A DNA stretch of 64,000 nt from Terriglobia bacterium (GTDB taxonomy: Bacteria; Acidobacteriota; Terriglobia; Terriglobales; Acidobacteriaceae), in the NCBI GenBank assembly GCA_020073665.1, contig JAIQEU010000007.1, positions 67,001-131,000 of the forward strand. Reading direction: 5' to 3'. The position numbers and the translations under genes were made by a program. The notes under the pieces are model-generated. The model had not been told where the DNA came from, did no database searches, and saw only the letters and a list, made by a program, of their open reading frames with translations. Positions 55,259 to 57,025 of this stretch are shown one piece after another. How positions within the stretch are numbered: position 1 is the first letter of the stretch; each line of letters starts with the position of its first letter.

Positions 55259-55291
55259 GGTCTCTGACTCGTCGAAACCGAGTCCGAGACC
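55259..55291. terminator. Bidirectional terminator between convergent genes
   Basis: GGTCTC-T-GACTCG (55259-55271) pairs with CGAGTC-C-GAGACC (55279-55291) around a seven-base loop: 12 pairs with one mismatch. It lies between the gene ending at 55238 (+) and the peroxiredoxin ending at 55297 (-). Confidence 0.75.
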
Positions 55292-55296
55292 TGGCT

Positions 55297-55758
55297 TTAA
55301 GCCGCCCCCTTCAGATACGCCAGCACTTCTTCGGCGTGGCCATCCGCCTTTACGTTGTGAAACACGTGTGCGATTTTTCCATCCGGCCCAATCACGAAGG
55401 TGGTACGCGCAATCCCCATCACTTTCTTGCCATACATGTTTTTCTCTTTGATCACACCGAAGGCTTCACAGATCTTTTTGTCGGCGTCGGAGAGCAGGGT
55501 GTAGGGCAGGTCGTACTTATCTTGAAACTTCTTCTGGGCCTTGGGCGGGTCAGCCGAAATGCCAAGAACTACGGCCCCGGCTTTCTGCAGTTTCTTGTAT
55601 GCGTCACGGAACCCGGACGCCTCTATGGTTCAACCCGGGGTATCGGCCTTGGGATAAAAGAACAGCACTACCGTCTTACCCCGAAGATCCTTGAGCGAGA
55701 CGTCTTTGCCATTCTCATCGGGCAAAGTGAACTCCGGGGCCTTATCATTGATATCCAT
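55297..55758 (-). CDS. bcp: Probable selenocysteine-containing peroxiredoxin (BCP/PrxQ family), TGA read through at codon 43
   Basis: 153 codons from ATG 55758 (AAGGAGACACCGCC before it) to TAA at 55297, with one in-frame TGA at 55630-55632. I translated both sides: DKAPEFTLPDENGKDVSLKD, LFFYPKADTPG, then TGA, then TIEASGFRDAYKKLQKAG, VVLGISADPPKAQKKFQDKY, KKICEAFGVIKEK, GIARTTFVIGPDGKIAHVFH and EEVLAYLKGAA. In BCP/PrxQ the residue after TPG is the peroxidatic cysteine (TPGCT), so the TGA replaces exactly the catalytic thiol; selenocysteine is the natural reading. The usual second Cys (CTxEACxF) is Ser48; C97 may act as resolving residue. The enzyme reduces peroxides with thioredoxin-like partners. 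Alternatives are a sequencing error (TGT/TGC to TGA) or a null mutation. The selA/selB/selC machinery is not in the window. Confidence 0.8.
55601..55620 (-). promoter_or_regulatory. Candidate bacterial SECIS hairpin in the peroxiredoxin mRNA
   Basis: Nine bases after the TGA the mRNA can fold as GCGUC-CGG-GUU-CCG-U-GACGC: five pairs, three GC pairs, a three-base loop starting with G, and one bulged U. Loop distance from the UGA is about 18 bases, inside the range reported for bacterial SECIS elements, which lie in the coding sequence just downstream of the UGA. Confidence 0.5.
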
Positions 55759-57025
55759 GGCGGTGTCTCCTTCTCGTCCAACGTTATACCGCAGGGCCCA
55801 CCGGGCCGTCATCCTGGCCAGCGTGGCTCTGCTGCTGGCACAAGTCCTGGCGGCGCAGGTTGCCGCAAAGGCCAACAAGGGCCCGCGGGCTTTGGGATTG
55901 CTTGAACTGGCGCCTAACGGCAAGGCCCACCTGGTCCCGGTCACCATCCTGTTCGAAGGCAAGTTCTACGACGCGGCCGCGTTCAAGGCCTCCCCGGTGC
56001 CCATGGTCCTGGAATCGGGGACGGTTTATGAGGCGATCCGCACCGGCGTTTCACAAGGCTTGTTCACCGTGACCGGAGCGCTCCAGGCAAGAAATACCTG
56101 GCTCGGCGAAGGCACGTGGGTGCCCGCAGGATCGGCTCCGCCTAAGAAGGCTTTGGCTCCGTCGCGACCTCCCGATGAAGACGTGGATGCGCCTCCCGTG
56201 CTGCGGCGTGAAAAGCCCAAGGCGCCAGAACCTCCGCCTGCCGAAACCAAGCCGCAACCGCCGGCGGGAACGCCCACTCCACCCAGCCCTGCCACCGCCC
56301 CCACTGCCGCGCCTGAGCCTGCTCAGCCGCCCGACGACAGTGATCGTCCCGTGCTGCGCCGTGGCAAGCCTGAGCCGGCGCCGAAGCAGGCCCCCGGCAC
56401 ACCCAAAACATCCGCAACAGCCCCTGCGGCAGTCAAGAAACCGCCGGCGACCACGGCTGCGATCCAGATCATTCCCGCGATTTCTGACGCGGGTGGCGCT
56501 GAGCCCCGCCCCTACTCCTTCGCCCTGAAGCCCGATGAAGAGCAGCAGTTGCGCAAGAAGATATTGGCACTCGCAACGGATGAGGTCCGCACCCACGTCA
56601 AGACGATGGCAGCGGAGACGGTAGGTGCCGTGAAAACGAAATCCCAGCCACTGCAGCCCGGCTTCGACGACATCCAATTGCGCGTCTTCGATCTTTCGAA
56701 CAGCAATGAGCCGGTGCTGGTGCTGATGGCAACCGTGCGAGTCCCGCAGGCGCCCAAGGCGGCGGCGCCAGGACAGCAGTTCTATCTCACGCTCGTCGCC
56801 CGCCAGGATCTCTACGGCGAACTGCACAAGGCGTTCTCCAGCGTGACCGACGCCAACCATCTGGACGTGACGCCGCGAATGGAATTGATCGACGCCGTGG
56901 ATGCCGACGGCAATGGCAGCGGCGAACTGCTGTTCCGTCAGGTTTCCGATGCCGGCAGCGCCTTCGTGGTCTACCGGGTGATTGGCAACCAGTTGTGGCC
57001 CCTGTTCCAGGGCACGCCGGAATGA
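55757..57025 (+). CDS. Secreted/anchored Pro-Ala-rich protein, unknown function
   Basis: 422 residues. The ATG at 55757 lies in CCATGG, which also holds the peroxiredoxin start on the other strand; GTG 55763 is an alternative and no ribosome-binding site is obvious. Signal peptide: RRAHRAVILASVALLLAQVL then AA. Residues of about 35-130 form one domain (GLLELAPNGKAHLVPVTILF, GTVYEAIRTGVSQGLFTVTG). Residues of about 130-240 are a Pro/Ala/Lys low-complexity spacer with two APPVLRREKP/RPVLRRGKPE copies. Residues 250-422 form a second domain (RPYSFALKPDEEQQLRKKIL, VLVLMATVRVPQAPKAAAPG, LIDAVDADGNGSGELLFRQV). No enzyme motif recognised. Confidence 0.75.
   Translation: MAVSPSRPTLYRRAHRAVILASVALLLAQVLAAQVAAKANKGPRALGLLELAPNGKAHLVPVTILFEGKFYDAAAFKASPVPMVLESGTVYEAIRTGVSQGLFTVTGALQARNTWLGEGTWVPAGSAPPKKALAPSRPPDEDVDAPPVLRREKPKAPEPPPAETKPQPPAGTPTPPSPATAPTAAPEPAQPPDDSDRPVLRRGKPEPAPKQAPGTPKTSATAPAAVKKPPATTAAIQIIPAISDAGGAEPRPYSFALKPDEEQQLRKKILALATDEVRTHVKTMAAETVGAVKTKSQPLQPGFDDIQLRVFDLSNSNEPVLVLMATVRVPQAPKAAAPGQQFYLTLVARQDLYGELHKAFSSVTDANHLDVTPRMELIDAVDADGNGSGELLFRQVSDAGSAFVVYRVIGNQLWPLFQGTPE

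Follow-up and report, generated by a model that had tools for sequence, protein, structure and literature searches.

A gene for a PrxQ/BCP-type peroxiredoxin on the minus strand of the window (the whole stretch of DNA analysed, 64,000 nucleotides) carries an in-frame TGA at its peroxidatic codon. With a probability of about 0.97, translation reads this UGA, codon 43, as selenocysteine (Sec), using SelB and tRNA(Sec) and guided by a hairpin behind it, so that Sec stands at the peroxidatic site. The actual insertion is inferred from the selenocysteine machinery of the genome, the conservation of codon 43 among relatives and a SECIS-like hairpin that TGA forms retain much more frequently than Cys forms; these results support the initial annotation, which had been made from the sequence and had called the gene a likely selenoprotein.

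Reading frame and family assignment

Read from 55758 to 55297, a single frame runs through 153 codons to a TAA stop codon (MDINDKAPEF...KADTPG-TGA-TIEASGF...LKGAA-TAA). Its sole internal stop is the TGA at 55632-55630 (minus strand), which replaces the peroxidatic cysteine of the TPG-C-T motif, and a Shine-Dalgarno-like AGAAGGAG was read 8 nt before the ATG (55767-55774, minus strand). An in-frame TGA at the catalytic cysteine of a BCP/PrxQ gene, with both halves intact in one frame, a ribosome-binding site and a normal stop, had been claimed earlier and is seen here in every part.

The readthrough product (P0001) matched PF00578 (AhpC-TSA) at 2.9e-44 and scored above the curated cut-off of NF006960, the BCP/PrxQ-type equivalog for thioredoxin-dependent thiol peroxidase (171.6 versus 140 bits). 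P36, T40, residue 43 and R118 were invariant in 22 sequences, that is, the PxxxTxxC/U motif was found together with the conserved arginine. An AlphaFold model, made from 22 sequences with Cys substituted for Sec, had a pLDDT of 95.1 and a pTM of 0.90 and placed residues 43 and 48 in one helix (41-59), the former close to its start. The nearest PDB chains in Foldseek were Burkholderia 5enu, the BCP chain of the integrative model 9a4d and Xanthomonas PrxQ; the best 20 chains (rmsd 0.9-3.1) were mostly named BCP or PrxQ, others AhpC/TSA. The protein thus resembles BCP/PrxQ enzymes (NF006960; Xanthomonas PrxQ 5iiz, 3gkm) in score and fold, but has Sec for the peroxidatic Cys, if UGA is decoded as proposed, and Ser at residue 48.

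Two further families of selenocysteine peroxiredoxins were compared. PrxU (NF040737), which we take to be named for the Sec peroxiredoxin of Eubacterium acidaminophilum, is likewise a Sec peroxiredoxin but another subfamily, P0001 staying far under its curated cut-off (53.1 versus 270 bits). The thiol peroxidase Prx-SUH (NF045827) is a peroxiredoxin-like selenoprotein that differs in its CxxU motif, as given in a passage of a 2026 review (PMC13188914), and P0001 scored 36.9 against a cut-off of 298.

Codon 43 in related genomes

P0001 gave matches in all 150 genomes searched; these were best matches, some of which may belong elsewhere in the superfamily. Codon 43 was compared in 130 relatives, using the best match and one per genome. 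The remaining 20 genomes, whose matches were weaker, partial or not listed, did not enter the comparison, and three of them (G097, G116 and G136) had one TGA each somewhere in the match. The alignment of orthologues, which had been proposed as a check, gave TGA at codon 43 in 57 of the 130 relatives and TGC or TGT in 73, while TAA or TAG occurred in none. Downstream of this TGA, a few rows had stops at aligned positions 149-152, and the frames were otherwise uninterrupted; some rows had a second stop somewhere in the match (e.g. G137, G113, G139).

TGC and TGT are each one base from TGA and errors are possible in draft assemblies, so that a TGA of accidental origin in the gene of a Cys peroxiredoxin, by nonsense mutation or by sequencing error, had to be weighed. 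It would leave unexplained why so many relatives share the codon with open frames behind it. One TGA form (L040) moreover comes from a genome assembled as a single contig (5.65 Mb), and because of this form and the 57 of 130 relatives a sequencing error is very unlikely. The earlier argument that a chance nonsense mutation would hardly strike the peroxidatic codon, one of 153, gains strength from relatives that carry either TGA or a Cys codon at that place.

The codon also followed selA. A selA match at E <= 0.001 was obtained in 119 of the 150 genomes (118 over the cut-off) and was scored as strong at E <= 7.5e-28 (114 genomes) or weak (five genomes: G020, G034, G035, G039, G062). All 57 TGA forms came from strong-selA genomes. 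The 73 Cys forms were distributed over strong-selA (41), no-selA (27) and weak-selA (5) genomes, and all 32 genes from genomes with no or weak selA were Cys forms. With the shared TGA, its co-occurrence with selA and the hairpin kept in most TGA forms (below), nonsense mutation and sequencing error were rejected, an accident being extremely improbable.

Among named public genomes, a set that overlaps the 130 relatives and is not independent of them, the best 80 loci kept comprised 17 TGA and 63 Cys forms. Their titles named Acidobacteriota groups including Acidobacteriales, Acidobacteriaceae, Terriglobia and Candidatus Sulfotelmatobacter, and all 17 TGA loci had 'MAG' in the title. A draw of 247 genomes from across the phylum gave matches at 1e-30 in 158 of them. 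Among the matches listed outside the class, TGA was present, anywhere in the match, in only four (G327, G342, G335, G353); the phylum-wide match in G265 also had a TGA, again anywhere in the match.

Selenocysteine machinery of the genome

The genome that holds the window (5.42 Mb, 62 contigs, completeness 100, contamination 1.87; window on contig C11) was searched for selA, selB, selD and the tRNA-Sec gene, to which the initial annotation had pointed as the test of its proposal. All four are present, and the objection that the genome has no such machinery fails. The whole genome gave one clear match to the Rfam tRNA-Sec family (70.6 bits, cut-off 47), called tRNA-Sec with anticodon tca by ARAGORN; the second and third matches above the cut-off were a tRNA-Ser and a tRNA-Leu. 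The ARAGORN call matters because the Rfam family also matched each of the 14 control genomes, five of them above the cut-off. selA lies on the contig of the window, 21 kb before it (436.8 bits; TIGR00474 482 versus 267.9), and selB was found at 383.5 bits (cut-off 242.25).

selD was found as two pieces of one frame (264.9 + 84.2 bits; L018 and L019, G000:C47:45138-46145), with an in-frame TGA in its N-terminal part (G-TGA-ASK). To judge by this codon, SelD of the genome is probably a selenoprotein as well; SelD is a listed selenoprotein family in the passages compared of PMC1794560.

These genes also bear on decoding of UGA as some other amino acid, through a reassigned code or near-cognate readthrough. 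Of the 12 ORFs checked (the window gene included), just two end in TGA, neither of them among the seven that were scanned with Pfam, so that these ORFs do not establish TGA as an ordinary stop, a point in favour of such decoding. The seven Pfam-matched neighbour ORFs, which include a deoxynucleoside kinase, panB- and panC-type enzymes and a methylpurine glycosylase, are nevertheless open in the standard code with no internal TGA, and selA and selB have no internal stop, unlike what a reassigned code would give. In the relatives, moreover, the TGA falls on the Cys column, and tRNA-Sec (TCA anticodon), selA, selB and selD stand together in one genome. Stop-codon reassignment was rejected on the grounds of these TGA-free frames and the Sec machinery, and the chance that UGA stands for some other amino acid is close to nil.

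Fourteen genome matches to P0001 were obtained, the window gene included, and in three others a TGA falls on the catalytic site or next to it: L153 (G000:C2:3554-3937, ...FAFTGG-U-T), L161 (G000:C47:79133-79534, ...DWTPT-U-A) and L163 (G000:C54:58116-58571, ...RGTW-U-PNC), all of the redoxin fold (PF00578 + PF08534). Judged from their codons, these are likely further selenoproteins, which brings the genome to at least five candidate selenoproteins, counting selD. A crude hairpin filter passed 24 of the 1719 in-frame TGAs of the window; by eye, the flanks of the other 23 were unlike conserved proteins. The tRNA-Sec gene itself is located downstream of a gene for a Cys-type peroxiredoxin, at a distance of about 250 bp (L154 / L001, G000:C33:102491-103313).

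SECIS-like hairpin

Behind the UGA, 9 unpaired nucleotides are followed by a predicted bacterial SECIS-like hairpin (+10 to +29; 55601-55620, minus strand) at -11.6 kcal/mol. Its stem has 8 pairs, three above and five below one bulged U, and its apical loop is GUU (55610-55612, minus strand) with G at +18, leaving 17 nt from UGA to loop. For bacterial SECIS elements, the passage compared of the 2026 review quotes a loop of 3-9 nt, G in the first two positions, a spacing of 16-37 nt and an MFE <= -7.5 (PMC13188914), and the window hairpin fits these values in loop, G, spacing and MFE. An Rfam search of the gene region gave no SECIS match, only one chance-level match.

Taken alone, the window hairpin was not significant, either in a synonymous-codon control (z -1.14, p 0.14) or in a dinucleotide shuffle of a longer, 69-nt stretch (z +0.90). 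Singly, 2 of the 57 Sec rows and 1 of the 73 Cys rows reached p <= 0.05 in the synonymous-codon control, with group mean z values of -0.91 for Sec versus -0.09 for Cys. Single-gene tests being weak, the hairpin lends support through the whole set of rows.

Pairs were counted by script across this set. The predicted loop started at +18 in 47 of the 57 Sec rows, and the upper stem plus G18 was present in 47/57 Sec versus 9/73 Cys genes (Fisher p 1.7e-16, uncorrected for relatedness of rows; such p values are overstated because the rows are related). Among genes that keep the Cys48 codon, the corresponding counts were 24/26 Sec versus 9/69 Cys. A looser test, which accepted any predicted loop at +16 to +26 with G in its first two positions, was passed by 51/57 Sec versus 27/73 Cys genes. 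The mean folding energy of +1 to +40 was -11.1 kcal/mol for Sec versus -8.1 kcal/mol for Cys, and codon 49 was GGG in 34/57 Sec versus 4/73 Cys genes. Position 14 was paired with 24 or 25 in all 57 Sec rows and in 55 of the 73 Cys rows; in the Sec rows the bulge thus shifts with codon 48.

Exceptions to the stem-plus-G test were found on both sides, 10 of the 57 Sec rows failing and 9 of the 73 Cys rows passing. For FdhA and a HesB-like protein, Cys homologues with remnants of SECIS-like structures have been described (PMC1794560, passages compared). Two Cys forms with TGT at codon 43, L064 (G028) and L128 (G122), keep the upper stem and G18, which makes them candidates for a fossil SECIS left behind by a change from Sec back to Cys. 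In L064 the base, and thereby the whole stem, is kept as well, and this gene may be a recent reversion.

Cys48 and the proposed mechanism

The window protein has Ser (TCC, 55615-55617, minus strand) at position 48, a codon that also lies in the hairpin stem, and so lacks the cysteine five residues after the peroxidatic residue. Cys48 is the presumed resolving residue of the 2-Cys form of PrxQ/BCP and is optional in the family. It was present in 69 of the 73 Cys forms and in 26 of the 57 Sec forms. Eighteen of the 31 Sec forms without Cys48, a group that includes the window protein, had no other cysteine in the matched region, to which the count was limited, residues beyond its ends being left out; the same was true of one of the four Cys forms without Cys48. 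In the window protein, the only cysteine left is Cys97 (TGT, 55468-55470, minus strand). The pattern suggests that there are 'lone-Sec' enzymes among the Sec forms.

In the proposed mechanism, SelB and tRNA(Sec) would decode UGA 43 as Sec, directed by the hairpin after the 9 unpaired nucleotides. Sec, replacing the peroxidatic Cys, would attack H2O2 or organic hydroperoxides and yield a selenenic acid, a step that follows established peroxiredoxin chemistry. The selenenic acid would most likely be reduced by an outside thiol, because position 48 is Ser here, or possibly through Cys97. We infer peroxidase activity and a 1-Sec mechanism with an outside reductant for the window protein.

The same missing cysteines could be read as a sign that Sec is inserted but serves a general thiol/selenol oxidoreductase and no longer a peroxidase: neither the window protein nor the other Cys48-less Sec forms retain the presumed resolving residue, and more than half of these forms have no alternative to it in the matched region. 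Such a shift of role is improbable, given the invariant P36, T40 and R118 around residue 43, the equivalog match to thioredoxin-dependent thiol peroxidase and the existence of 1-Cys peroxiredoxins (AhpE, by PDB title). A Sec-dependent peroxidase is retained as the preferred reading.

As codon 48 is also in the hairpin stem, constraint on the RNA may have contributed to Cys48 loss; the hairpin does not force this loss, since 24 of the 26 Sec rows with Cys48 fit it. On a tree built without codons 43-53, which had few columns and many open forks and in which gains were indistinguishable from losses, the distribution of Sec and Cys requires 14 changes or more; well-supported branches make only three of these unavoidable. 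Independent-pairs tests of Sec versus Cys48 and Sec versus Cys97 had three supported pairs only and were not significant. For Prx, five Cys-to-Sec events and no Sec-to-Cys event were counted in 2006 (PMC1794560, passages compared). We tentatively suggest, at somewhat less than even odds, that PrxQ of this acidobacterial group is a hot spot of Sec/Cys switching, that the gain of Sec freed the enzyme from its resolving Cys and gave cysteine-free 'lone-Sec' peroxiredoxins reduced wholly from outside, and that some TGT-encoded Cys forms with an intact hairpin are recent reversions with a SECIS fossil.

Relation to known Sec peroxiredoxins

Sec peroxiredoxins with the TxxU motif are an established selenoprotein family, and the window gene is another member, ordinary in kind; the loss of Cys48 in 31 of the 57 Sec forms is the less ordinary part of the finding. 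In the passages compared, 43 Sec peroxiredoxin genes (COG1225) are given for the Sargasso Sea (PMC1088965), 12 Sec Prx genes for 2006 (PMC1794560), 253 with the TxxU motif for GOS (PMC2398784) and 91 in 78 organisms for 2016 (PMC5029168). In the passage compared of the 2026 review (PMC13188914), Sec Prx is listed with a citation of the 2001 PrxU paper and stands above the heading 'Predicted with high confidence'. For Acidobacteria, three selenoprotein families with four genes were given in 2006 (PMC1794560), and three selenoprotein genes are given for Occallatibacter riparius (PMC12013277), again in the passages compared.

The window gene shares with the Prx family (COG1225/PF00578) the domain, the TxxU motif, UGA at the peroxidatic position and a bacterial SECIS-like hairpin behind UGA; the main-text passages compared hold no account of the lineage of the window or of Cys48 loss. 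A literature search for BCP/PrxQ or acidobacterial Sec peroxiredoxins, with supplements outside its scope, gave general selenoproteome papers, none evidently devoted to the lineage. A standard gene caller would likely give a 42-residue fragment or a pseudogene for the window gene, and selenium use in Acidobacteriota may therefore be under-recorded. In more than 100 related genomes, the Sec and Cys versions of one enzyme, with and without Cys48, occur side by side in nature, a comparison that is relevant to why selenium is retained or lost in bacteria.

Flanks of the gene

A promoter scan gave no promoter-like site and one terminator-like site, the same number as in shuffles. Directly after the stop codon of the PrxQ frame, an imperfect inverted repeat, GGTCTCGGACTCG ... 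CGAGTCAGAGACC (minus strand), was found at 55259-55291 and is possibly a terminator without a T run. At the other end, the start codon lies in a CCATGG palindrome (55755-55760). On the plus strand, the ATG at 55757 opens a frame whose beginning resembles a signal peptide, MAVSPSRPTLYRRAHRAVILASVALLLAQ, and the palindrome may hold overlapping start codons for two divergent genes.
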